Shown: piece after piece, positions 10,017-25,505 of the stretch
Numbering within the stretch: the first letter of the stretch is position 1
How the letters are laid out: each line of letters begins with the position of its first letter
NCBI GenBank assembly: GCA_031178105.1
Contig: JAPSJX010000006.1
Location: 1 to 47,829, forward strand
Reading direction: 5' to 3'
DNA: 47,829 bases
DNA from: Agrococcus sp.
GTDB taxonomy: Bacteria > Actinomycetota > Actinomycetes > Actinomycetales > Microbacteriaceae
The notes under the pieces: generated by a model
Told to the model about the DNA's origin: nothing
Database searches by the model: none
What the model saw: the letters and a program-made list of their open reading frames with translations, nothing else
Program-made: the position numbers and the translations under genes

Positions 10017-10742
10017 TCAGGGCAGCGACCGTCGGAGGGCGGCGAGGCGCTCCAGCGCACGGTCGATCGAGGCGCGGTCGGTGCCGCGCACGACGATGTT
10101 CGTGCCGTAGCCGGATCCGTCCCGGAACGGGTACGACCCGATGCTGAGCTGCGGCATCTCGGCGGCGAGGTCGCGCAGCGGCGCGGCGATGCGCCCCTCG
10201 CCCACCTCGAAGCGCAACTCGCCGGAGAGCAGGGGTCGCCCCGCTTCGAGGCCAGGCAGCAGCGCGTCGAGCATGGCGACGAAGATCGAGGGGACGCCGG
10301 CCATGACGTGCACGTTCTCGACGCTGAACCCGGGAGCACCGCTGATGCGGTTGTCGATGAGGTCGGCGCCGTGCGGGATGCGCGCCATGCGCAGGTGCTC
10401 GGGCGTCAGCGTGCGGTCGCGCCCGACCGCGGCCTGCAGGAGGGCACGGGCGTCGTCGCGCACGTCGATGCCGACGCCGAACGCCGCGGCGATCGCATCC
10501 GCCGTGATGTCGTCATGCGTCGGGCCGATCCCACCGGAGGTGAACACGTGCGTGTGCCTCGCGCGGAGCGCGTTCAGGGCCTCGACGATCACGGCGTGGT
10601 CGTCCGGCACGACGCGGATCTCGCGCAGGTGGATCCCGAGCGGCTCGAGCCGCCCTGCGAGGTGGTGCGCGTTCGCCTCTCGCGTGCGGCCCGAGAGGAT
10701 CTCGTCGCCGATCACGAGCATCGCGGCCGTCGGGTTCGTCAT
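10017..10742 (-). CDS. CinA-type molybdopterin-binding (MoaB/Mog fold) domain protein
   Basis: 241 aa starting MTNPTAAMLVIGDEILSGRT. VIGDEILSG, RVVPDD, FTSGGIGPTHDDITADAIA and GAPGFSVENVHVMAGVPSIF are the hallmark motifs of the CinA N-terminal domain, which acts on ADP-ribose/nucleotide-type substrates in some bacteria. The C-terminal nicotinamide-nucleotide amidase domain of full CinA is absent. It is 36 nt downstream of the UvrA-like gene's start region in the same direction, but separate. Confidence 0.87.
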   Translation of the reverse strand: MTNPTAAMLVIGDEILSGRTREANAHHLAGRLEPLGIHLREIRVVPDDHAVIVEALNALRARHTHVFTSGGIGPTHDDITADAIAAAFGVGIDVRDDARALLQAAVGRDRTLTPEHLRMARIPHGADLIDNRISGAPGFSVENVHVMAGVPSIFVAMLDALLPGLEAGRPLLSGELRFEVGEGRIAAPLRDLAAEMPQLSIGSYPFRDGSGYGTNIVVRGTDRASIDRALERLAALRRSLP

Positions 10743-10947
10743 GCAGGAAGACTGCCGTGTCGTGCTGGGGGAAGGCCGGGCACGGAACGGGGATGCGCAT
10801 GTGTGCCTCGACGTCGCTCGCGCCAAGCGCTGGGCATGGATGCTCGCGCCCCTGCTCAAGCGCAACATCGTGATCCCTCAGCGAACGCCTTGGAGCGCAC
10901 GTCGCGCGTCGCCGGCGAGCACCGCGAAGCTAGCTTCAAACGCATGA
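10741..10947 (+). CDS. possible small hypothetical ORF
   Basis: A 68-aa open frame (MQEDCRVVLGEGRARNGDAH...). Its ATG overlaps, on the opposite strand, the start codon of the CinA-like gene, and its stop forms an ATGA overlap with the next ORF. Codon use in the first half looks coding, but there is no room for a promoter of its own unless transcription starts inside the CinA gene. Kept as a weak candidate. Confidence 0.22.
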   Translation: MQEDCRVVLGEGRARNGDAHVCLDVARAKRWAWMLAPLLKRNIVIPQRTPWSARRASPASTAKLASNA

Positions 10948-15461: not shown

Positions 15462-15573
15462 TCGTTCCACCGGCGTCGAGCCGGGTCTCCGCGTCGCATC
15501 CTGCCGCATCTCGCGCGCTGACGGAGCGAAGCGAGTGGCCAGCGCGTCGTACTCTGTCGGGACAGGTCGGGGG

Positions 15574-16770
15574 TCAGCTGAACCGCGCCAGCATCAACCC
15601 GACGATCGCGAGTACGGCGGCGACCAGCCCCATCGCTGCGTACGAGCCGGTCGCGCTCGCGAGGACGGGGCCGAGCGCGGGCCCGATCGCGGTCACCGCG
15701 GTGATCGGCGCGGCGAACACGCCGTTGATCGCCCCGTAGTTCCGCGTTCCCCACCGATCCGCCACGGCGGAGCCCTGCACGAGGGTCTGCGCACCGCGGA
15801 CGGCGCCCGCGCCGATCCCGATGAGGATGAGCAACCACGGCGGGCCAGGCACGATCGCCAGCAGTGCAAGAGTGATGGCGCTCAGCCCTGCGGTGAGCGA
15901 CAGCGGCACCCATGGCGACGCCGCATGCGGCAGCACGACGTAGACGATGCGCCCGAGCACCTGCCCAGCCCCGAGCAGTCCGAGCCCCCACGCCGCGAGC
16001 TCGAAGGTCATGCCCCGCTCGGTGTACAGCGGGATGATCGCGAGCGTCACGCTGTACAGCGCCGCCGCGACGGCGATCATCGCCAGCTCCAGCGTCCAGA
16101 AGCGACGGGTCCGCAGCACCGCCGACACGGACTCGTGCGGCTCCTCGGCCACTCGCACCGACCGTGGCGGCCACATCCGCTCGAGGCTCCACCAGTGGAG
16201 CGGCGTCGTGGTCGCCACCAGGACGACCGCGAGCGCGAGCATGGTCGCCCGCCAGTCGAGCACGCTCAGCATCCCGGCCACCACAGGCGCGAACACCGTG
16301 GACGCGAGCCCACCCGCCAGCGTGACGACGGTCATCGCCCGGCGCCGGTCGGATGGATGCCTGCGGGTGATGACCGTGAACGCGGCTTGGTAGAGCACGG
16401 CGGACTGCCCGATCCCGACCACGATCCAGCCGAGCACGAACACCGGCAGATCCTGGGCAGCGCTGACCACCACGAGGCCGAGCGCGCCGACGACGCTGCC
16501 GCACGTCATGACGACGCGTGGGCTGCCCCTGTCGAGCCATCGCCCGACGAGCACGCCGGCGATCGCGGAGGTCACCAGACCGGCCGAGAACGCGAGCATC
16601 ACCGATGCGAGCGCCCAGCCCGTGTCGGTCGCGACGACCGGGGCGGCGACGATCAGCGCGTAGTAGAGGATGCCCCAGCTGATGACCTGCCCGATGGACA
16701 GCGCCGCGAGCCGCCCCCGGCGAGCGCCCGGTGTGAGCTCGACCGCGTCGGGCCGAGCGCCCGTGCTCAC
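15574..16770 (-). CDS. MFS transporter, candidate arsenical efflux
   Basis: 398 aa, GTG start, 12 hydrophobic segments. LVGRWLDRGSPRVVMTCGSV is the loop 2-3 motif-A region, and GWIVVGIGQSAVLYQAAFTVI a TM4-5 motif. It is 13 nt downstream of arsR and so almost surely in its operon. MFS proteins in ars clusters (ArsJ, ArsK types) export organic or trivalent arsenicals. No GAPDH gene is adjacent, so ArsJ function is unlikely; the substrate is an inference from context. Confidence 0.8.
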   Translation of the reverse strand: MSTGARPDAVELTPGARRGRLAALSIGQVISWGILYYALIVAAPVVATDTGWALASVMLAFSAGLVTSAIAGVLVGRWLDRGSPRVVMTCGSVVGALGLVVVSAAQDLPVFVLGWIVVGIGQSAVLYQAAFTVITRRHPSDRRRAMTVVTLAGGLASTVFAPVVAGMLSVLDWRATMLALAVVLVATTTPLHWWSLERMWPPRSVRVAEEPHESVSAVLRTRRFWTLELAMIAVAAALYSVTLAIIPLYTERGMTFELAAWGLGLLGAGQVLGRIVYVVLPHAASPWVPLSLTAGLSAITLALLAIVPGPPWLLILIGIGAGAVRGAQTLVQGSAVADRWGTRNYGAINGVFAAPITAVTAIGPALGPVLASATGSYAAMGLVAAVLAIVGLMLARFS

Positions 16771-16783
16771 CCGCCCACTCCCG

Positions 16784-17131
16784 TCAGAAGGCGCGCAGCG
16801 CGGCCGCCGCGGCGTCGAGCGCCGGGCGCACGACGGAGTAGTAGGCCCACTTCCCTCGCTGCTCGCGCACGACCAGCCCCGCTTCGGCGAGGATGCGCAG
16901 GTGGTGCGACACCGTGCCCTGCGAGAGCCCGACCGGGTCGGTGAGGTCGCAGACGCACGCCTCGCCCTCCTGGCCCGCGGCGATCAGCGAGAGGAGGCGG
17001 ACGCGCGTGGGGTCGCCCATCGCCTTGAAGACCGTGGCCGTCCGCGCCGCCTCTTGGCCCGACAGCGCAGGCCCTGCGGGCGTGCAGCACCCCTTGGAGG
17101 CGTCGGCGGCGATGGGCGTCGCGGAGGTCAT
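16784..17131 (-). CDS. arsR: ArsR/SmtB family arsenite-responsive repressor
   Basis: 115 aa. Residues 15-16 are CC and residues 59-61 are CVC in GEACVCDLTDPVGLSQGTVSHHLRIL (quoted in pieces: EACVCDL, SQGTVSHHL). The N-terminal Cys pair plus a Cys near the DNA-recognition region matches the As(III) site of Corynebacterium ArsR (Cys15, Cys16, Cys55). Metal binding releases the operator. It heads a leftward operon with the MFS gene and faces the rightward FAD gene over a shared 87-nt promoter region. Confidence 0.92.
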   Translation of the reverse strand: MTSATPIAADASKGCCTPAGPALSGQEAARTATVFKAMGDPTRVRLLSLIAAGQEGEACVCDLTDPVGLSQGTVSHHLRILAEAGLVVREQRGKWAYYSVVRPALDAAAAALRAF

Positions 17132-17152
17132 GGCGACAGTCTGCCACACGCA

Positions 17153-17194
17153 TTGACAGACGTCGATGCGATGATGCAGGATGACCGCATCGAC
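17153..17194. promoter_or_regulatory. ArsR-type operator/promoter between arsR and FAD gene
   Basis: TTGACA (17153-17158) with an 18-nt spacer to CAGGAT (17177-17182) makes a good rightward promoter. GTCGATGCG (17162-17170) and CGCATCGAC (17186-17194) form a perfect 9-bp inverted repeat, 15 nt apart, straddling the spacer and start point. This is where an ArsR dimer would block transcription in both directions. Confidence 0.6.
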
Positions 17195-17218
17195 AGTCTT
17201 CAATACGAGGAGCATGCT

Positions 17219-18517
17219 ATGCCGGACCTTCCCGTCGTCGTCGTCGGCGCCGGCCCACAGGGCCTCGCCGCGGCGGCCCACCTGCTCGAGCGCGGCTTCG
17301 AGCCGATCGTGCTGGAGCGCGGAACGAGCGCGGGCGCCGCGGTCTCGGAGTGGGGTCACGTGCGCCTGTTCTCGGCCTGGGACGAGCTCGTCGACTCGGC
17401 GAGCCGTCGACTGCTGCAGGCTGCCGGGCACGTCGTCCCGACCTCGGGCTATCCGAGGGGCGAGGCATGGGTGCGCGACTACCTCGCGCCGCTCGCGGCC
17501 GCGCTGGGCGACCGCGTCCGCTTCGGCCGCGAGGTGACGTCGGTCACGCGACTCGGCCGTGACAAGGTCGTCGACGGCGGCCGCGACCAGCAGCCGTTCG
17601 CGGTGCGCTTCGTCGACCGCGAGGGCCGCGAGCAGCGCCTGCTCGCGCAGGCCGTGCTCGACGCATCCGGCACGTGGAGCCAGCCCGGCCCGGCGGGCGC
17701 CGACGGCACGCCCGCGCTCGGCGAGCGAGCGGCAGCCGACCGCATCGACTACCGCATCCCCGCCGATGTCAGCGCGCTCGCCGGCGCCCACGTCGCCGTC
17801 GTCGGCGCCGGCCACTCGGCGGTGCATGCGGTGCTGCGGCTGGCGGAGCACGCGGAGCGCCACCCCGGCACGCGCGTCACCTGGCTCGTGCGACGCCCTT
17901 CGGTCGAGGGCGCGCTCGGAGGCGGCGAGGCGGATGCCCTCCCCCAGCGCGCGTCGCTCGGCGTGCGGGCGCGCCGCGCGATCGAGCTAGGTTCCGTGGA
18001 GCTCGTGACGGGCTTCCGGGTCGACGAGATCCGCCCCGCGAGCGACGGCATCGTGCTCGTCGCCGAGGACGGCCGTGAGCTCGGACCGGTCGCCCGGCTG
18101 TTCGCGCTGACCGGGTTCCGTCCTGATCTGTCGATGCTGTCGGAGGTGCGGATCGCCATCGATCCCGCGCTCGACGCGGTCGCCGGGTTGGCGGCGGAGA
18201 TCGATCCGAACATCCACTCGTGCGGCACGGTCGCCGCGACGGGAGCGGCCGAGCTGGCGCAGCCCGAGCCGGGCCTGTTCATCATCGGCGCGAAGAGCTA
18301 CGGACGGGCGCCGACGTTCCTGGCGCTCACCGGCTACGAGCAGGTGCGGAGCGTCGTCGCTGCACTCGCAGGTGACCACGAGGCGGCCGCGCGCAACGAG
18401 CTCGTGCTGCCCGAGACGGGCGTCTGCGGTGGCAGCGGCGACTTCGGCGGCAGCAGCTGCTGCGCGGCCCCCGCGGCAACGCAGCCGGAGCACCGCGAGG
18501 TCATCGCGGTGCTGTGA
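17219..18517 (+). CDS. FAD-dependent oxidoreductase/monooxygenase of ars cluster (ArsO-like), Cys-rich tail
   Basis: 432 aa; ATG at 17219 preceded by ACGAGGAG. GAGPQGLAAAAHLLERG (about 8-24) is the FAD-binding Rossmann motif and GAGHSAVHAVLRLAEHA (about 198) the NAD(P) one, so the layout is that of flavin monooxygenases. The C-terminus carries ETGVCGGSGDFGGSSCCAAP, four cysteines in 20 residues, suited to bind As(III). Genes of this type (ArsO) recur in actinobacterial ars operons; the reaction is not settled. A 68-nt gap with a new promoter separates it from the next gene. Confidence 0.85.
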   Translation: MPDLPVVVVGAGPQGLAAAAHLLERGFEPIVLERGTSAGAAVSEWGHVRLFSAWDELVDSASRRLLQAAGHVVPTSGYPRGEAWVRDYLAPLAAALGDRVRFGREVTSVTRLGRDKVVDGGRDQQPFAVRFVDREGREQRLLAQAVLDASGTWSQPGPAGADGTPALGERAAADRIDYRIPADVSALAGAHVAVVGAGHSAVHAVLRLAEHAERHPGTRVTWLVRRPSVEGALGGGEADALPQRASLGVRARRAIELGSVELVTGFRVDEIRPASDGIVLVAEDGRELGPVARLFALTGFRPDLSMLSEVRIAIDPALDAVAGLAAEIDPNIHSCGTVAATGAAELAQPEPGLFIIGAKSYGRAPTFLALTGYEQVRSVVAALAGDHEAAARNELVLPETGVCGGSGDFGGSSCCAAPAATQPEHREVIAVL

Positions 18518-18550
18518 CGCGGAAACGCAGTTCGCCGCGCCGCGCCGCAT

Positions 18551-18580
18551 TTGCATGCAGCATCGATACGCATCAATATA
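18551..18580 (+). promoter_or_regulatory. second ars promoter with ATCGAT-N4-ATCAAT operator
   Basis: TTGCAT (18551-18556) and the AT-rich CAATAT/AATATA (18574-18580) can serve as -35 and -10. Overlapping them, ATCGAT-ACGC-ATCAAT (18562-18577) is an imperfect inverted repeat of the SmtB/ArsR operator type, unusually AT-rich for this DNA. The next ATG lies only 5 nt after, implying a leaderless transcript. Confidence 0.5.
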
Positions 18581-18585
18581 GAAGC

Positions 18586-18762
18586 ATGTCTATGCAGCAC
18601 ACCGACCTCGCGCGCGTCCCTGCCGCGGGCGACCTCGTCGCCTACCGCCAGGCGATCACCGCCGCCGGCACCGGCTGCGCAGCCGCGCAGGACGGCCCGC
18701 ACTTCCTCGCGGTGCTCGAGCTCGCAGAGCCCGCCCACCGCGTCGAGAGCCTCGTCGCGTGA
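18586..18762 (+). CDS. small ORF coupled to the arsenite pump, 58 aa
   Basis: MSMQHTDLARVPAAGDLVAY opens a soluble 58-aa frame with GTGCAAAQDGPHFLAVLELAEP. The stop overlaps the GTG start of the ACR3 gene (GTGA), so translating this ORF would deliver ribosomes to the pump. The start lies 5 nt from the predicted -10, so it would be read as a leaderless mRNA. I do not know a family; it has one cysteine. It may be a functional micro-protein or a translation leader. Confidence 0.6.
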   Translation: MSMQHTDLARVPAAGDLVAYRQAITAAGTGCAAAQDGPHFLAVLELAEPAHRVESLVA

Positions 18763-19898
18763 CCGTCGCGACCAGCGCCGAGCCGGCTGCGATCAGCGCG
18801 ACCACTCCGCCCCGGCTGTCCGCACTGGACCGCTGGCTGCCGCTGTGGATCGCGCTTGCGATGGGCGCCGGGCTGCTGCTCGGCAGCACCGTGCCCGCCG
18901 TCGGCGCGCTGCTCGCGCAGCTCGAGATCGGCGGCATCTCGCTGCCGATCGCGCTGGGCCTGCTCGTGATGATGTACCCGGTGCTGGCGAAGGTCCGCTA
19001 TGACCGAGTGGCGGCCATCACCGGCGACCGCCGCCTGCTCATCTCGTCGCTCGTGCTCAACTGGCTCGTCGGACCGGCGCTCATGTTCGCCCTCGCCTGG
19101 CTGCTCCTGCCCGATCTCCCCGAGTACCGAACCGGCCTGATCATCGTCGGGCTCGCGCGCTGCATCGCCATGGTCGTCATCTGGAACGACCTCGCCTGCG
19201 GCGACAGGGAAGCGGCGGCCGTGCTCGTCGCCATCAACTCGGTCTTCCAGGTCGTCGCCTTCGCGCTGCTGGGCTGGTTCTACCTGACCGTGCTGCCGGC
19301 ATGGCTCGGCCTCCAGACCCAAGGGCTCGACATCTCCATGGCCGAGATCGCCGTCAACGTGCTGATCTTCCTCGGCATCCCGCTCGCGGCCGGATTCGCA
19401 TCGCGCTGGATCGGCGAGCGCACCCGGGGCAGGGACTGGTACGAGCGCACCTACCTCCCCGCTGTCGGTCCCTGGGCGCTGTACGGGCTGCTCTTCACGA
19501 TCGTGCTGCTGTTCGCGCTGCAGGGCGAGAACGTCGTGCAGCGGCCGCTCGACGTCGCCCGGATCGCGCTGCCGCTGCTCGCCTACTTCGCGCTGATGTG
19601 GTCGATCGGCCTCGTCACGGGCAAGGCGTTGGGGCTCGGCTATGCCCGCTCCACCACCCTCGCGTTCACCGCCGCGGGCAACAACTTCGAGCTCGCGATC
19701 GCCGTCGCGATCGGCACGTTCGGCGCCGCATCCGGGCAGGCGCTGGCCGGTGTCGTCGGACCGCTGATCGAGGTGCCCGTGCTCGTCGGCCTCGTCTACG
19801 TCTCGCTGTGGGCGGGCCGCGTCTGGTTCCGAACCGGTCCAGTGCCGCCTGTCCTCGACGTGGCCTCGCAGCCCGGCCCGGATCGGAGCACAGCATGA
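18759..19898 (+). CDS. acr3: ACR3 family arsenite efflux transporter
   Basis: 379 aa, GTG start overlapping the preceding stop. Ten hydrophobic segments are visible. LGLLVMMYPVLAKVRYD, then IIVGLARCIAMVVIWNDLA with the conserved essential Cys in TM4, and FTAAGNNFELAIAVAIGTFG and GPLIEVPVLVGLVYV are diagnostic ACR3 motifs. It exports As(OH)3 using the proton motive force; it is called arsB in some genomes, but the fold is ACR3 (BART), not ArsB. Its stop overlaps the next ATG (ATGA). Confidence 0.95.
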   Translation: MTVATSAEPAAISATTPPRLSALDRWLPLWIALAMGAGLLLGSTVPAVGALLAQLEIGGISLPIALGLLVMMYPVLAKVRYDRVAAITGDRRLLISSLVLNWLVGPALMFALAWLLLPDLPEYRTGLIIVGLARCIAMVVIWNDLACGDREAAAVLVAINSVFQVVAFALLGWFYLTVLPAWLGLQTQGLDISMAEIAVNVLIFLGIPLAAGFASRWIGERTRGRDWYERTYLPAVGPWALYGLLFTIVLLFALQGENVVQRPLDVARIALPLLAYFALMWSIGLVTGKALGLGYARSTTLAFTAAGNNFELAIAVAIGTFGAASGQALAGVVGPLIEVPVLVGLVYVSLWAGRVWFRTGPVPPVLDVASQPGPDRSTA

Positions 19899-20872
19899 GC
19901 GCCACAGCGCAAGCTGCACCCTGCTCGCCCGCGACATCGCAGGCGATCAGTGAGCATGCTGCCGCGACCGTCGCGGCGACGCTGAAGTCGCTCGCCGACC
20001 CGCTACGGCTGCGCATGCTGTCGGCCATCGCCTCCGACCCGCGGGGCGAGTCATGCGTGTGCGATCTCGCCGAGCTCGCGGACGTCTCCCAGCCCACGGT
20101 CTCCCACCACCTCAAGGTGCTCAAGGACGCCGGCGTGCTCGTCTCCGAGCGCCGGGGCTCGTGGGTCTGGTACTCGATCGACGCGACCGCTCGTCCCGCG
20201 ATCACCACCCTGCTCGAGGGCTTCGCACCCGCAGCACTCGCGGCGCCCCGCGACACGGACGCCTACCACGGTCTCGACGACGTCGACGAGGCACTCACGC
20301 ACCTGGCGTCCTCGCTGATGTCGCGGTTCCCCCAGCTGAGCCCGGACGCCGTCACGGGCGTCGTGCGCGAGTCGTACGCCGGACTCGCCCGAACAGCACG
20401 GATCACAGCTCACCTCGTGCCGCTGACGGAGCGGTTCGCCCGGCAGCGCCTCTCCGACCTGACGCGCGACCGCTCGACGGGCGTGCCGCAGGTGCTGTTC
20501 GTCTGCGTCGCCAACGCGGGCCGGTCGCAGCTCGCAGCTGCCCTCGTCAACCAGGCAGCACGCGGCCGCGTCGTCGCACGCTCCGCCGGCTCGTCGCCCG
20601 CCTCTGCGATCCACCCGAACGTGCGTCCGCTGCTCGAGGCCATCGACGGCTCCGACGCAGAGGCCTTCCCCAAGCCGCTCACCGATGACGCGGTCCGGGC
20701 CGCGGATGTGGTCGTCACCATGGGTTGCGGCGACGTCTGCCCGATCATCCCCGGCGTCCGGTACGAGGATTGGGCTGTCGGCGACCCCGCACTCGCGTCG
20801 TACGAAGGCGTTGCCGCGATCCGCGACGACCTCGCGCAGCGCGTCGAACGTCTCGTCGCCGAGCTCGTCTGA
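19895..20872 (+). CDS. ArsR-ArsC fusion: arsenic-sensing repressor plus arsenate reductase
   Basis: 325 aa in three parts. Residues about 20-105 are an ArsR winged helix with CVCDLAELADVSQPTVSHHL (metal site CxC). Residues about 125-190 are the three-helix bundle module (ALTHLASSLMSRFPQL, VVRESYAGLARTAR). Residues about 195-325 are a low-molecular-weight-phosphatase-type ArsC with VCVANAGRS (nucleophile Cys) and TMGCGDVCP (resolving Cys). The frame has no interruption and overlaps acr3 by 4 nt. The protein could couple arsenate reduction directly to derepression. Confidence 0.93.
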   Translation: MSATAQAAPCSPATSQAISEHAAATVAATLKSLADPLRLRMLSAIASDPRGESCVCDLAELADVSQPTVSHHLKVLKDAGVLVSERRGSWVWYSIDATARPAITTLLEGFAPAALAAPRDTDAYHGLDDVDEALTHLASSLMSRFPQLSPDAVTGVVRESYAGLARTARITAHLVPLTERFARQRLSDLTRDRSTGVPQVLFVCVANAGRSQLAAALVNQAARGRVVARSAGSSPASAIHPNVRPLLEAIDGSDAEAFPKPLTDDAVRAADVVVTMGCGDVCPIIPGVRYEDWAVGDPALASYEGVAAIRDDLAQRVERLVAELV

Positions 20873-20940
20873 GCAGCTGTCCATCCCCCGCACCACGAGC
20901 GTTCACTCGCACGACATCCCCAACCCCTAGAAATGCAGCG

Positions 20941-20960
20941 GTGCCGGTCGAGACCGGCAC
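20941..20960 (+). promoter_or_regulatory. perfect hairpin in the leader of the second arsC
   Basis: GTGCCGGTC-GA-GACCGGCAC is a 9-bp perfect inverted repeat, 20 nt before the arsC ATG. There is no T-run, so it is either an RNA-stabilising/processing hairpin or a weak attenuator in the 108-nt gap between the fusion gene and arsC. TAGAAA at 20928-20933 just before it could be a -10 for a separate promoter. Confidence 0.45.
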
Positions 20961-20980
20961 ACCACCGAGAGAGAGCCACC

Positions 20981-21391
20981 ATGAGCGAGAACCCCACCGT
21001 CCTGTTCGTCTGCGTGCACAACGCCGGCCGATCCCAGATGGCCGCCGGCTTCGCGTCTGCGCTCTCCAACGGCGCCGTCGAGGTGCTCTCCGCCGGCAGC
21101 GCACCGAAGGACCAGATCAACCCCGTCGCCATCGAGGCAATGGCAGAGGTCGGCATCGACATCGCCGGCAACACCCCGAAGGTGCTCACGGTCGACGCCG
21201 TCCGCGAATCCGACGCCGTCATCACCATGGGCTGCGGCGACGCCTGCCCCATCTTCCCTGGCAAGCGCTACGAGGACTGGGAGCTCGAGGACCCGGCCGG
21301 CAAGGACATCGAGACCGTCAGGCGCGTTCGCGACGACATCCGCGGCCGGGTCGAGCGACTGCTCGCCGACCTCGTGCCGAGCGCGGGCTGA
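20981..21391 (+). CDS. arsC: arsenate reductase ArsC (LMW-phosphatase type)
   Basis: 136 aa starting MSENPTVLFVCVHNAGRSQM; GAGAGAG serves as ribosome site. The CVHNAGRSQMAAGF P-loop holds the catalytic Cys; SAGSAP is the typical beta-turn and TMGCGDACPIFPGKRYEDW carries the second/third cysteines. This actinobacterial type takes electrons either from thioredoxin or from mycothiol/mycoredoxin; the sequence does not decide which. Reduces As(V) to As(III) for export by Acr3. Confidence 0.93.
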   Translation: MSENPTVLFVCVHNAGRSQMAAGFASALSNGAVEVLSAGSAPKDQINPVAIEAMAEVGIDIAGNTPKVLTVDAVRESDAVITMGCGDACPIFPGKRYEDWELEDPAGKDIETVRRVRDDIRGRVERLLADLVPSAG

Positions 21392-21393
21392 CC

Positions 21394-22059
21394 ATGGACC
21401 AGCTCGACGTCAGCGCACGCCGCGGCCTGCCCGGCATCACCTATCCCGAGCGCTTCCTGCACACGCTCACCGACGAGCTGAGGGCAGACTTCGAGGGGAT
21501 CTTCGCGGCCGAGACGATCGAGCGGTACGTCCTGGAGTCCTACACGGCGCTGCTGCGCACATCGGCGGTGAAGGCGCACCTCGTCACACGCGTCACCCAG
21601 TTCGCGAAGGACCGGCTCCACGCTCTCGCCGAGGCGAAGGGCGCGATCCCGCAGGACCGCCCCAGCGTGCTGTTCGTGTGCGTGCAGAACGCGGGACGCT
21701 CGCAGATGGCCGCCGCCATCGCCGCCGAGCGCTCCGGAGGCCGGCTCGTCGTGCGGTCCGCGGGCTCCATGCCTGCCGCTTCCTTGCACCCCGCCGTCGT
21801 CTCGGCGATGGCGGAGGTGGGGCTCGACCTGACCGCGGAGTTCCCGAAGCCGCTGACCGATGACGTCGTGCGGGCTGCGGACGTGGTGGTCACGATGGGC
21901 TGTGGCGACGCGTGCCCCATCTACCCCGGCAAGCACTACGAGGACTGGCAGCTCGACGACCCCGAGCACGCGACCCCGGAGGATGTGCGACGCGTCCGCG
22001 ACGAGATCACCGACCACGTCGACCGCATGCTGGAGCAGCTCGGCGTGGCTCCCGCCTGA
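21394..22059 (+). CDS. arsenate reductase with N-terminal three-helix module
   Basis: 221 aa, starting 2 nt after the arsC stop. Residues about 15-80 form the three-helix bundle (ERFLHTLTDELRADFEGIF, RYVLESYTALLRTSAV, AHLVTRVTQFAKDRLHAL). Residues about 88-221 are ArsC with VCVQNAGRSQMAAAI and TMGCGDACPIYPGKHYEDW. In effect it is the ArsR-less version of the fusion gene two positions upstream, suggesting it arose by duplication. Last gene before the mini-island. Confidence 0.92.
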   Translation: MDQLDVSARRGLPGITYPERFLHTLTDELRADFEGIFAAETIERYVLESYTALLRTSAVKAHLVTRVTQFAKDRLHALAEAKGAIPQDRPSVLFVCVQNAGRSQMAAAIAAERSGGRLVVRSAGSMPAASLHPAVVSAMAEVGLDLTAEFPKPLTDDVVRAADVVVTMGCGDACPIYPGKHYEDWQLDDPEHATPEDVRRVRDEITDHVDRMLEQLGVAPA

Positions 22060-22167
22060 GGTCGACAGCGCGGGCACCGTCACCGCGCAGCTGCAGTGCG
22101 CCACTGGGGCTGTGTGCTCTCGGCGTGAGCGCTCCTCCGGTGTCTCGAGATGTCGCAACGACCTTCT

Positions 22168-22184
22168 ACACGTTGAAGCGGAAC
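22168..22184 (+). repeat. left att copy, 17-bp direct repeat
   Basis: ACACGTTGAAGCGGAAC is identical to 24434-24450 inside the 3' end of ychF. On the minus strand this copy reads TTC CGC TTC AAC GTG TAG, that is, the last five ychF codons followed by a stop codon, although no ychF body is attached. That is expected if an element inserted here and displaced the original gene end. Confidence 0.8.
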
Positions 22185-22454
22185 GTTAACGCCTGACGTG
22201 TCCAGCGCCGGCGAATGCTGGCTCCCCTGTGCTTCTGTGGAATCCGAGAGTCTCGAAACATCGATGGTTCCGTGCTCTATGGACGCTCGTGCGGCATGTC
22301 TGCGGACTCAATGCCGACTGCGTCTCCCTTCGCACGCCGGTCGTCCGGTGGGCCTCCTAAGTGCCTTGCCGTCAGGCGGAATCAACGAGAGCAGCTGGAC
22401 GAGGGGCGTGAGGCCAGCGCTCAGGTTCGTCGAGACAGGCATGGGTGCGAGCCT

Positions 22455-22489
22455 CGCTAGTGCGCTAGTCAAGTGGCCGATCACTAGCG
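22455..22489. repeat. iteron-like CGCTAGT repeats
   Basis: CGCTAGTG (22455-22462) and CGCTAGTC (22463-22470) are tandem, and CACTAGCG (22482-22489) is the inverse of the first. Spacing suggests binding of a dimeric protein, either a regulator of the downstream gene or a recombination accessory factor. No such protein gene is inside the element. Confidence 0.45.
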
Positions 22490-22627
22490 CCAGCGGTGCC
22501 TGCTGCCGACGGGAAGCGGTTCGCTGGCTCGCTTGGCACGCAACGTTGACCGGGGCCTAGCATCGTCACTGCTCACTACACTGAGGCTCTCTCAGCCGTC
22601 ATCTCCGAGCAAAGGGACGCAGGCACC

Positions 22628-24214
22628 ATGAGCATTCTCTACCGAGCTGTCTGGTCGGACGGTGCGATAACCGATGTCGGCCATGCGCTCGAAGCACTGC
22701 GCACACGAGTCGCAGGGTGGACGCAGGAGTCCGCCGAGCCTGCTCCCTTGACCGAAGGCCAAAGCGAGTTCCGCGTGTCGCAGAGGCGGCAACGCCGCGT
22801 GACGCACCGCTCCATCGGTGATGAGGGCTTCGAGGTCATCGCGACCGATCAAATTCCCGGAGATCCGACCGAGTGGGTGACGACCGTCCGGGTCGTCGCG
22901 GAGGGCGAGCAGCTCCACACATTGGTCGAGCTCAGCATGTCCTCCGACGACCTCATGCGACGCGTCGTAGTCGGGCGGCCCGGAGTTGTGCGCGAGCTGC
23001 TGGACGCTGCGACGAAACCAAGGCTCGCCGGGAGCGCCGTGCTCAGCGCGCCGCTGGAGGTCCCTGCGTCCCAGATCACAGCACTCACGGACCTTCTCGC
23101 GTCTCCTGAGCGCGCCCTGCCGTTCATCATCTGCGCGGAGCCGAGCGGAGAGCATGACGGCTTGTGGCTTAAACTCGCCGACAAGATCGGGACGCGAGCA
23201 GAGGGCGTCGCAATGGTGCTCACACTCGATCGCGAGGCCGTGTATGCCTTCCGGCGGGAGTTCGGCTCCCTCGCCATCTGGGATGGTGGCATACGTGTCT
23301 ACGCGCCCGGCTCCGTAACGCCGGGCTCGGATGGCTGGCGGCACCGCTACTACGTGCGGTCTCGGCTGCAGGAGGCGACCCAGCCCACGATCGACCGCAT
23401 CGTGTATTCGGTCGCGCAGCTTTCCACCCGACGCAGGGTGCCCAGCGTCTTCGCTGCCTTCGGCGAACAAGCAGGCCTGCCCGCTGACTCCCTCGATGGC
23501 ATGATTCCGGCTGCCGAGCTGACCCGGGCGCTCGAGGCGTGGGAGCACGAGCGTGCAGTAGCGCTCGATGAGCAGAGCGCGGTCGAGAAGGAGCTTGCCG
23601 GCGCGAATGGCCACCTTTCACGTCTCAAGGACGCACTCGTCGAGCAGGGCCTGAGGGATTTGATTTGGGGAACCAAGCACGAGGATGGCGCGTCGATACC
23701 TGACGAAGTGCAAGACACCTCCGAAGCAGTCATGGCCGCGCAGGCCTACCTTTCCGACTGGCTTGTGCTCCCAGACTCAGCCGTCCGAGAACTGGAAGAC
23801 ATCGATGCTGCCCCTGAGTCGTACAACTGGGGCAACAAGACGTGGCGCGGGCTGCGTGCACTGGCTGCGTACGCCAAGGACCGCGCAGAGGGCTGGGACG
23901 CAGGCGGCTACTGGGAATGGTGTGCCTCCGGGCCGCTGCTCGGTTGGCCGGCGTCCCCCAAGAAGTTGTCGATGACCGAGAGCGAGACGGTCCAGAACAA
24001 CGCCAGGCTCAGTCGCACACGCGTGTTCAAAATCGACACACGAGTCGATGTCTCGGGAGAGCTCACCATGCTTGCGCATCTCAAGATCTCCGAGGGCGGT
24101 GGCAGCATGGCGCCTCGCGTCTACTTCCACGACGACACCGGCGGTTCGACTGAGAAGGTCCACGTCGGCTTCGTCGGACCGCACTCCCTCGTTCCCAACA
24201 AGTCAGCGAACTGA
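22628..24214 (+). CDS. unrecognised 528-aa protein, cargo of the ychF mini-island
   Basis: The start MSILYRAVW has AAAGGGA about 12 nt upstream. I recognise no named family. Visible parts: an alpha/beta N-terminal region (1-120); a middle region (about 140-250) with LPFIICAEPS, AMVLTLDREAVYAFRRE and GGIRVYAPG; a coiled coil (about 295-345, ALEAWEHERAVALDEQSAVE); a Trp-rich segment YNWGNKTWRGLRAL (about 410); and a C-terminal domain with MLAHLKISEGG, PRVYFHDDTGG and KVHVGFVGPH. No membrane helix, Walker or nuclease motif is clear. As sole island cargo, a defence or island-maintenance role is possible but unproven. Confidence 0.8.
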   Translation: MSILYRAVWSDGAITDVGHALEALRTRVAGWTQESAEPAPLTEGQSEFRVSQRRQRRVTHRSIGDEGFEVIATDQIPGDPTEWVTTVRVVAEGEQLHTLVELSMSSDDLMRRVVVGRPGVVRELLDAATKPRLAGSAVLSAPLEVPASQITALTDLLASPERALPFIICAEPSGEHDGLWLKLADKIGTRAEGVAMVLTLDREAVYAFRREFGSLAIWDGGIRVYAPGSVTPGSDGWRHRYYVRSRLQEATQPTIDRIVYSVAQLSTRRRVPSVFAAFGEQAGLPADSLDGMIPAAELTRALEAWEHERAVALDEQSAVEKELAGANGHLSRLKDALVEQGLRDLIWGTKHEDGASIPDEVQDTSEAVMAAQAYLSDWLVLPDSAVRELEDIDAAPESYNWGNKTWRGLRALAAYAKDRAEGWDAGGYWEWCASGPLLGWPASPKKLSMTESETVQNNARLSRTRVFKIDTRVDVSGELTMLAHLKISEGGGSMAPRVYFHDDTGGSTEKVHVGFVGPHSLVPNKSAN

Positions 24215-24226
24215 CGGGTCGCTCGT

Positions 24227-24245
24227 TTCGCGGCGCTGCCGCGAA
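24227..24245 (+). terminator. hairpin after the island gene
   Basis: TTCGCGGC-GCT-GCCGCGAA is a perfect 8-bp stem with 3-nt loop, 12 nt after the stop of the 528-aa gene. No T-run follows. The rest of 24246-24431 shows no gene; it separates the hairpin from the ychF stop. Confidence 0.55.
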
Positions 24246-24431
24246 CTGATCACCTTGCGGGCGAAGGGCCGGCCTGAGGTTCGACGCCGACGGCCCGCGC
24301 CTCCTCCCGGTCCGGGTGCAGGTGAGACGCCCTGCTTGTGCGACCGCTGGCGGGCCGAGGGACTCTTATCTGCGGAGCCCCCGATGAACTGACTGCAAAT
24401 TCCGCGTGATGCAGAGAATCTCAGGCAACAC

Positions 24432-25505
24432 TCACACGTTGAAGCGGAACTCCACGACGTCGCCGTCGGCCATGACGTAATCCTTGCCCTCGATGCGCAC
24501 GCGGCCGGCGGCCTTCGCCTCGGCCATCGAGCCCGCCGCATCCAGGTCGGCGAACGAGACGACCTCGGCCTTGATGAAGCCGCGCTCGAAGTCGGTGTGG
24601 ATGACGCCGGCGGCCTGCGGGGCGGTCCAGCCCTTGCGGATCGTCCAGGCGCGCGACTCCTTCGGCCCGGCCGTCAGGTAGGTCTGCAGACCGAGCGTCT
24701 CGAAGCCGATGCGGGCGAGCTGGTCGAGGCCCGACTCCTCCTGCCCGAGCGACTGCAGCAGCTCGAGCGCCTCTGCGGGCTCGAGGTCGACGAGCTCCGA
24801 CTCGACCTTGGCGTCGAGGAACACGGCCTTCGCGGGCGCGACGAGCGCCGCGAGCTCGGCCTTGCGGTCCGCATCCGAGAGCACGTCCTCATCGACGTTG
24901 AAGACGAACAGCACGGGCTTCCCGGTGAGGAGGCCGAGCTCCTTGATGGGCGTCGTGTCGAAGCCGGCCTGGCCCAGCGTCCGGCCCGAGTTCAGGATCT
25001 CGTTGGCCTCGACCGCGGCCGCGAGCACGGAGGCGTCGGCCTTCTTGCCCTTGACCTCCTTCTCGAGGCGCGGGATCGCCTTCTCGAGCGTCTGGAGGTC
25101 GGCGAGCATCAGCTCGGTGTTGATCGTCTCCATGTCGGAGGACGGGTCCACCGTGCCCTCGACGTGCACGACATCGCTGTCGCCGAAGCCGCGCACGACC
25201 TGCGCGATGGCGTCGGCCTCGCGGATGTTCGCGAGGAACTTGTTGCCGAGCCCCTCGCCCTCGCTCGCGCCCTTGACGATGCCGGCGATGTCGACGAACG
25301 ACACCGCAGCGGGGAGGATGCGCTGCGACCCGTGGATCTCGGCGAGCCGCGTCAGGCGCTCATCCGGCAGCTCGACCACCCCGATGTTCGGCTCGATCGT
25401 GGCGAACGGGTAGTTCGCCGCGAGCACGGTGTTCTTGGTGAGCGCGTTGAAGAGGGTCGACTTGCCCACGTTGGGGAGTCCGACGATGCCGATCGTGAGT
25501 GCCAC
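24432..25505 (-). CDS. ychF: redox-regulated ATPase YchF (Obg-like universal GTPase family)
   Basis: 357 aa, full length. GLPNVGKSTLFNALTKN (8-24) is the G1 loop, FVDIAGIVKGASEGEGLGNK the G3/switch region, and FVFNVDE replaces the usual NKxD, the mark of YchF, which prefers ATP. The C-terminal TGS domain ends DGDVVEFRFNV. YchF binds ribosomes and modulates the oxidative stress response. The last five codons form half of the island's att pair, and the TGA stop plus downstream DNA come from the island. Confidence 0.96.
   Translation of the reverse strand: MALTIGIVGLPNVGKSTLFNALTKNTVLAANYPFATIEPNIGVVELPDERLTRLAEIHGSQRILPAAVSFVDIAGIVKGASEGEGLGNKFLANIREADAIAQVVRGFGDSDVVHVEGTVDPSSDMETINTELMLADLQTLEKAIPRLEKEVKGKKADASVLAAAVEANEILNSGRTLGQAGFDTTPIKELGLLTGKPVLFVFNVDEDVLSDADRKAELAALVAPAKAVFLDAKVESELVDLEPAEALELLQSLGQEESGLDQLARIGFETLGLQTYLTAGPKESRAWTIRKGWTAPQAAGVIHTDFERGFIKAEVVSFADLDAAGSMAEAKAAGRVRIEGKDYVMADGDVVEFRFNV
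24434..24450 (+). repeat. right att copy within ychF 3' end
   Basis: ACACGTTGAAGCGGAAC, identical to 22168-22184. It covers codons Phe-Arg-Phe-Asn-Val of ychF plus the first base of the stop. Protein-coding 3' ends that stay intact after insertion are common targets of tyrosine or serine recombinases. Confidence 0.8.

Follow-up and report, generated by a model that had tools for sequence, protein, structure and literature searches.

Two reports, as far as their available text goes, already describe tandem islands that lack an integrase and occupy the 3′ end of a single-copy gene (PMC3146451, PMC5704250). Of the islands counted at the ssrA gene of Dehalococcoides in the accessible part of the first report, 16 have an integration module and 15 do not (PMC3146451). 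The second, in its available part, defines cis-mobilizable elements (CIMEs) as decay products of an integrative and conjugative element (ICE) or an integrative and mobilizable element (IME) (PMC5704250). Integration next to ychF is also known in pneumococcus, where the accessible passages place it upstream of the gene (PMC8637289, PMC10383233). Here, we analyze a 47,829-nucleotide stretch of Agrococcus sp. DNA, called the window throughout, in which a 2.25-kb island is found at the 3′ end of ychF. With a rough probability of 0.8, the sequence evidence favors reading this island as a non-autonomous integrative element at ychF, either moved in trans or deprived of its integrase after insertion. 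The ychF 3′ end apparently serves two different recombination systems, and the second of these, the cassette arrays described below as class B, is the likelier of the two to be new and a more surprising result than the island itself.

The locus resembles the Dehalococcoides ssrA islands in having tandem islands and short direct repeats of a single-copy gene’s 3′ end, but its target is a protein gene rather than a tmRNA gene, and its enzyme a tyrosine integrase rather than the serine recombinase DsiB, going by the available text of that report (PMC3146451). Like a CIME, as characterized in the accessible part of the defining paper (PMC5704250), the island lacks visible integration and transfer genes, keeps attachment-site copies and sits in tandem at the end of a target gene; a CIME, however, by definition descends from an ICE or IME, and no conjugation gene was seen here, transfer genes not having been searched for one by one. 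Core copies stand on both sides of it, with a clear match in the left interior and a weak one in the right. The pneumococcal prophages and satellite prophages are likewise phage-type elements integrated beside ychF (PMC8637289, PMC10383233), but the available portions of these reports locate them in an intergenic region upstream of ychF in one case (PMC10383233) and between a DUF951 gene and ychF in the other (PMC8637289), whereas the island described here uses the end of the ychF reading frame. Among the open-access literature matches listed for ychF, which do not cover other names of the gene, no title or opening of an abstract reports integration at its 3′ end. Phage-inducible chromosomal islands (PICIs) and phage-inducible chromosomal minimalist islands (PICMIs) are small phage satellites without a full mobility gene set, which depend on a helper, bring defense cargo and typically carry an integrase. 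The window island is similarly small, with incomplete mobility genes and candidate defense cargo, but it has no integrase. No phage satellite gene for integration, replication or interference with packaging, and no packaging gene, was seen in its 2.25 kb, which hold one large open reading frame (ORF) and no PHROGs match.

The island is framed by an exact 17-bp direct repeat, ACACGTTGAAGCGGAAC, at positions 22168–22184 and 24434–24450, both on the + strand. The right copy (24432–24450, − strand) consists of the last codons and the TGA of ychF, the target gene (24432–25505, − strand), whose identity is secured by PF06071 (YchF-GTPase_C, E = 3.7e-38) and NCBIfam TIGR00092 (428 bits against a cut-off of 279), both matches being above their cut-offs. 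The left copy (22166–22184, − strand), made of the 17-mer plus TAG, reads F-R-F-N-V-TAG where ychF reads FRFNV-TGA, and represents the left attachment-site copy. In G016, the homologous left flank stops at window position 22162, and the left copy starts at 22166. Allowing up to three mismatches, the window contains two matches to ACACGTTGAAGCGGAAC, a number reached in none of 100 shuffles (mean 0.04); in the window’s own genome (G000; 1.94 Mb, 65% complete), these two copies are the only matches at up to two mismatches. A repeat common by chance, which an earlier note on this DNA had considered, is thus not what is found: the pair is unique in the available sequence of the genome. The island has a GC content of 65.0% against 72.3% for the rest, and the lowest-GC 2,250-bp stretch of the contig (22001–24250) overlaps it. 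Its single large ORF (22628–24214) encodes 528 residues; a home-made tyrosine-recombinase profile, built from sequences collected in this analysis, found no such enzyme in the whole window. The earlier note had described an exact direct repeat, a less GC-rich island, a right copy equal to the ychF end, a left copy reading FRFNV-TAG and one large cargo gene without a recombinase, and it was right on each of these points.

The end of ychF recurs as a docking site in related genomes, all G-numbered genomes being species representatives. The 15-mer ACGTTGAAGCGGAAC was found in 168 of 398 genomes of the family (its reversed control gave one match in each of two genomes); in 27 of these it is present two or three times. 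Where positions are listed, for 21 of the 27, the copies share a single contig in 17 genomes and are spread over different contigs in four. Of those 17 genomes, 16 have every copy in the same orientation, and G161 has an extra inverted one. At the loci examined, 0.35 to 13 kb separate neighboring ychF-end copies, most of which retain an in-frame YchF stop codon. In the stretches first examined for G043 and G201, ychF was not found; in G043 it lies about 9 kb away. A degenerate search for the YchF tail gave no match in a reversed control of 592,572 bases. Inverted ychF-end copies are found at G161:C1:1057376–1059503 and at G024:C1:762 and 17359 and C2:1988. At locus L059 (G368), copies lie 12.8 kb apart at a divergent YchF (46% identical), and the locus has a large ORF resembling, by eye, a TrwC-type relaxase.

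Elements with both ychF-end copies and an integrase, which the earlier note had proposed to look for, do exist. In G192, a 10.5-kb element bounded on each side by such a copy carries an open reading frame for a 383-residue tyrosine integrase (PF00589, 84 bits); 33 bp separate the end of its stop codon from the stop codon of ychF. Paenarthrobacter sp. AR 02 has an open 368-residue integrase, 66% identical, 31 bp from the ychF stop codon; in Arthrobacter sp. EpRS71, an integrase fragment (68%) accompanies both ychF-end copies, 8.2 kb apart. These two are the only ychF-associated cases among 23 integrase loci in named genomes, the other 21 (32–60% identity) showing no ychF in the available stretch. 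Within the 398 family genomes, 13 have a relative of the integrase at E ≤ 1e-60, in 14 places. It adjoins ychF in G192, G315 and G352 (second match), the copies in G315 and G352 being broken; G013 has a broken integrase fragment inside its island; the remaining 10 of the 14 places show no ychF within 1.5 kb. G017, which is not part of the 398-genome sample, has a truncated integrase adjoining ychF. The G192 element also encodes a phage tail tape-measure protein (L064 4905–7439) and, judging from its gene content, may be a phage satellite or a small prophage; given this tape-measure protein, the parent of the window island may equally have been a phage satellite or prophage.

We define class A copies as those that have 15–19 bp in common and in which the sequence departs right after GGAAC, as it does at the left copy of the window and in the integrase elements. 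They comprise the window copy at 22166, G192 (locus L064), G013 (L035), G017 (L051), G016 (L036, outer copy) and EpRS71; some ychF-end copies, for example those of G066 and G368, assign clearly to neither class. The left interiors of class A, except that of G013, have a common block at offset 34–60 and TGCGGACTC repeats near +125 and +136. In the window, the block lies at 22219–22244 (+ strand) and is a probable arm-type site region common to ychF-integrase elements. It is identical to that of G017 at 21 of 26 positions, at the same core offset, a match equaled in none of 20,000 shuffles (which preserve base composition only), and to those of G016 and G192 at 15 of 26 (P about 0.017 each). A pair of probable arm-type sites, 11 bp apart, follows at 22290–22309 (+ strand), with a degenerate TGCGGCATG at 22290 and an exact TGCGGACTC at 22301, that is, at +136 from the copy. 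Pairs of TGCGGACTC-like sites lie at +125/+136 in L051 and L064 and at +124/+135 in L036, and L147 has a site at +125. On the right side, a degenerate arm-type site, TGCGGAGCC (24371–24379, + strand), lies 61 bp before the right stop codon; L051 has TGCGGACTC 62 bp before its right copy. The right interior block AAATTCCGCGTGATGC (24397–24412, + strand) gives short same-offset matches to L051 (13/16, P = 2e-4) and L064 (12/16, P = 0.003).

A 150-bp profile of the left interior, built from four ends (G017, G192, EpRS71 and G016) with the core left out and the window unused, ranks the window first among 95,360 positions, with a z of 5.9 and in exact register; the window scores −3.0 and the runner-up −31.7. 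Nineteen other ychF-end copies score −84 or lower, that of G013 among them at −136. A further model, R2, includes the window and served only to find further left ends. Site-specific insertion at the 3′ end of ychF, the central proposal of the earlier note, is thus supported by evidence independent of the repeat, namely a left interior that matches, at matching distances from the core, that of elements with an integrase against ychF. The comparison of ends supports assigning the island to a family of tyrosine-integrase elements with this insertion site; having no integrase of its own next to ychF, it would be a non-autonomous rather than a full member of class A.

Several observations weigh against this interpretation. 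Two of the window’s arm-type sites are degenerate, and its left block shows no match to that of G013 (P 0.56), despite the broken integrase of the latter. When each training end of the left profile is left out in turn, the four rank 1, 1, 2 and 104; nor was the profile blind, as the likeness between the window, G017 and G016 had been seen before the training ends were chosen and G013 was omitted. With a 110-bp profile of the right interior, the window ranks 25,786 of 95,440, which is not significant; that profile is largely integrase coding sequence, which the window does not have. Relatives of the integrase at 63–64% identity occur in G448 and G352 without ychF within 1.5 kb, so the target is not fixed by sequence alone. 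A helper integrase was not found in the available 65% of genome G000, and no second genome of the genus (n = 24) has the cargo gene. An empty site with the same left flank, which the earlier note had set beforehand as a test, was not found: none of 23 relatives has the arsenic-resistance (ars) region of the left flank joined directly to ychF. Finally, the ars element of G011, discussed below as a relative, lies about 390 kb from ychF, so that its link to the gene rests on its left end and on a CinA-like gene 1.8 kb away.

In the sequence of events that we propose, a class A integrase specific for ychF would have joined the circular form of the island to the gene by a crossover within the common 15–17 bp, and the island would have supplied a new FRFNV-stop tail, so that ychF stayed intact. 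Its insertion would have been an accretion, next to an arsenic-resistance element of the same family that was already in place. As the island has no enzyme, either the integrase of another element moved it or its own was lost after insertion. Past mobility is favored. Movement in trans, which the earlier note had put forward, is plausible, but no helper was found in the available 65% of the genome and no clean empty site in the relatives, the right end matches over a short stretch, and a decayed element would look alike. A small element with a recognizable landing end and no enzyme makes movement in trans simply testable.

The strongest competitor, to which we give somewhat less than an even chance, holds that the island is what remains, now immobile, of a complete integrase element that inserted here and then, by internal deletion, shed its integrase along with most of its genes. 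The degenerate arm-type sites of the window fit this account, as do the short matches to which its right end is reduced and the frequency of broken integrases at ychF (G013, G017, G315, G352 and EpRS71). Against this, 150 bp of the left end are well preserved, and the cargo gene has an uninterrupted reading frame. In addition, G016 shows that members without a detected integrase can have repeats at both ends. Its 11.8-kb ars island, in which no tyrosine recombinase was found, is bounded by TGCGGACTC-like repeats and is, by its ends, a second class A member without a detected integrase.

Class B copies, unlike those of class A, run on into a conserved 50-bp site. They were traced with a model, R1, of 17 sites chosen for resembling the ychF end; the YchF reading of R1 matches is therefore partly built in, and several matches are the ychF end itself. 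Matches reaching model position 46 or beyond occur in at least 39 of the 398 family genomes, a count of our own with stricter filters, in which a position outside ychF was not checked for each match. Strand and spacing were counted over all R1 match rows except L037, which is the same stretch as L092. Sites were found at 40 loci, 37 of them with two or more sites and at most seven per locus; in 36 of these 37 all sites lie on a single strand, the exception being L057 (G161). The 80 inter-site segments of 250–6,500 bp have a median length of 1,357 bp. Mean GC is 0.62 for 79 cassette segments, a hand-listed set from which eleven rows were omitted (four of L037 and seven others, including the opposite-strand match of L057). 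Of 35 sites outside ychF, 31 have an in-frame YchF stop codon and 26 an FNV-stop ending. Arrays of small co-oriented cassettes at ychF can be seen at L115, L117, L118, L041, L040 and other loci. Their ORFs were picked by a codon-composition rule of our own, which makes gene counts rough, and the hydrolase, NUDIX, HigA and TrwC names of array cargo were given by eye, while those in G011, G185 and G029 were tested.

Sharing of cassettes between genomes locates the point of exchange. One cassette common to G016 and G018 is 99.0% identical over 1,469 bp, against 89.6% for the ychF genes and 71–82% for the flanking DNA. G003 and G431, of two genera, have three consecutive cassettes in common (99.1% over 3,002 bp), against 77.8% identity for a 234-bp piece of ychF. 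The G003 assembly is fragmented (490 contigs, 78% complete) and its array contigs could be misplaced, so the location of the block edges is more secure than the conclusion that the sharing crosses genera. The identity of the shared block begins at ACCGCGTTCCG and ends after CGGAACTC, which places the crossover within TCNACC.

The enzyme responsible was sought among both recombinase families. Run over 54 sources (arrays, other ychF loci and the window), the tyrosine-recombinase profile detected nothing beyond the class A integrases of L035, L051 and L064. G006 and G014 have two PF00589 matches each; one in G014 is XerD-like, and the others were assigned to Xer on their scores. The idea that the top-scoring integrases include a special array recombinase was rejected: eight from array genomes, together with those of G000 and G241, resemble one another as copies of a single housekeeping recombinase would, and we take them to be XerD. 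Other integrases of array genomes (12 loci) show no ychF-end core in the stretch examined. The large serine recombinases of array genomes were likewise set aside, with no class B site match in 212,318 bases around them; enzymes of this kind also occur in G011 and G004, genomes without an array. At L188–L198 and L207, large serine recombinases are common to several genomes and about 47–99% identical for most pairs. Several of their ORFs run, by eye, into tRNA-like read-through tails, so these enzymes are probably located at tRNA genes. An attC-like folding of class B sites was also tried and rejected, six sites folded as DNA giving z from −1.61 to +0.58.

Whether ychF anchors a second, integron-like cassette system, distinct from the window’s element, is on these sequence comparisons an evenly balanced proposition. 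Such a system would consist of cassettes of about 1.4 kb, bearing accessory genes (toxin–antitoxin pairs, small-molecule enzymes and defense genes) and stacked in one direction. The first half of the 50-bp site would be mostly the YchF tail and stop, so that a new cassette could rebuild the 3′ terminus of its target gene, and a recombinase encoded elsewhere would exchange cassettes at a fixed point in CGGAAC-TCNACC-rCGTTCC. The window island would then be an integrase-type element on a shared docking site. The arrays resemble those of integrons in their small accessory cassettes, single direction and site-specific crossover, as described in the accessible part of a survey that found no complete integron in Actinobacteria and a few clusters of attC sites lacking integron-integrases (CALIN) (PMC9024848). 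The recurrent docking site at ychF is found in a group where, within the available text of the same survey, integrons are reported to be extremely rare (PMC9024848). Cargo that we named by eye as toxin–antitoxin and acetyltransferase-like adds to the likeness, but no IntI was found beside the arrays, the sites do not fold like attC, and docking occurs at a housekeeping gene. Staphylococcal cassette chromosome (SCC) elements occur as tandems at the 3′ end of rlmH, a conserved protein gene whose tail each of them restores, and use the ccr serine recombinases. Class B differs from them in that its sites are not near the serine recombinases examined. A mapped crossover point whose recombinase was not found makes the class B arrays a testable question.

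It is very improbable that the window island itself belongs to these integrase-less arrays of 50-bp sites. The docking gene is the same, and class B includes single-gene defense cassettes such as AbiD in G185, but the window has no full site: R1 matches positions 1–19 at the left copy and 1–34 at ychF. The left copy, moreover, departs right after GGAAC, before the class B crossover, and the left interior is that of class A; a class B origin was rejected on these grounds. Less credible still is the absence of any site-specific event, with 17 bp repeated by chance, duplication or unrelated recombination and a low GC content due to ordinary foreign DNA; the lack of a clean empty site would suit it, but the repeat exceeds chance and is unique in the available genome, ychF-end copies recur in family genomes and the end sequences match.

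The single cargo gene of the island (22628–24214, + strand) encodes a candidate anti-phage defense protein of 528 residues. It matches two PADLOC families, HEC-07 (E = 7.3e-15, residues 48–270) and NsnC (E = 1.9e-4, residues 450–523), both of them candidate families, and has no Pfam family above cut-off and no NCBIfam or PHROGs match. Matches to the cargo occur in 20 of 297 genomes of the order, its own included, the best other being 44% identical over residues 1–526; none was found in the other 23 genomes of the genus (1/24, the window’s own). A search of viral contigs gave no pattern match, and seven plasmid records match, all partially and at less than 60% identity. No consistent partner is apparent, by eye, among the cargo’s neighbors in three other genomes. 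Elsewhere, three of seven other ychF-side loci, chosen by eye, have clear PADLOC matches, so that ychF appears from these annotations to host defense genes often, though not always. Beside the ychF 3′ end, G011 has a set resembling a cyclic-oligonucleotide-based antiphage signaling system (CBASS), with cyclase, E1–E2, JAB and TIR-SAVED proteins (L050 7162–11851), at which no left ychF-end copy was detected. PADLOC further identifies AbiD at the ychF-side locus of G185, an AbiLi/AriA-like ATPase in G029 and, as its only match, mad1 for a 1,357-residue protein of G013; the loci of G335, G202 and G241 have no PADLOC match. The 3′ end of a protein gene is in this way a recurrent docking site for defense and resistance cargo.

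To the left of the island, conserved synteny ends near 10.74–10.79 kb, at a CinA-like gene (10017–10868, − strand; NCBIfam CinA-type matches below cut-offs) that forms the conserved left border of a variable region, as seen in 17 relative loci where the stretch includes the gene. In these loci, only part of the arsenic-resistance region (15573–22060, + strand) recurs between the CinA-like gene and ychF, in G016 (L036) and G002 (L047); G019 also has ars genes and a left end. In the window, no left end of an ars element was seen, nor, to the left of the 22166 copy, any sequence of an element’s right end. Judging from the ars elements of G016 and G011, an older member of the same family at ychF probably brought the window’s ars genes, and the mini-island would have arrived later. 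The 17-bp repeat does not enclose the whole variable region, and insertion of the island was probably the most recent of several events at ychF that left layers there, not a lone one. The same ars genes occur in G011, at 83–90% identity over three main blocks, flanked by a class A left end, 1.8 kb from a CinA-like gene, and by a related open integrase (64% identical). With the CinA-like gene this close and ychF about 390 kb off, a chromosomal rearrangement in G011 is likely from the gene order; the two positions concerned on G011:C1 are near 2,057,110 and 2,446,995.

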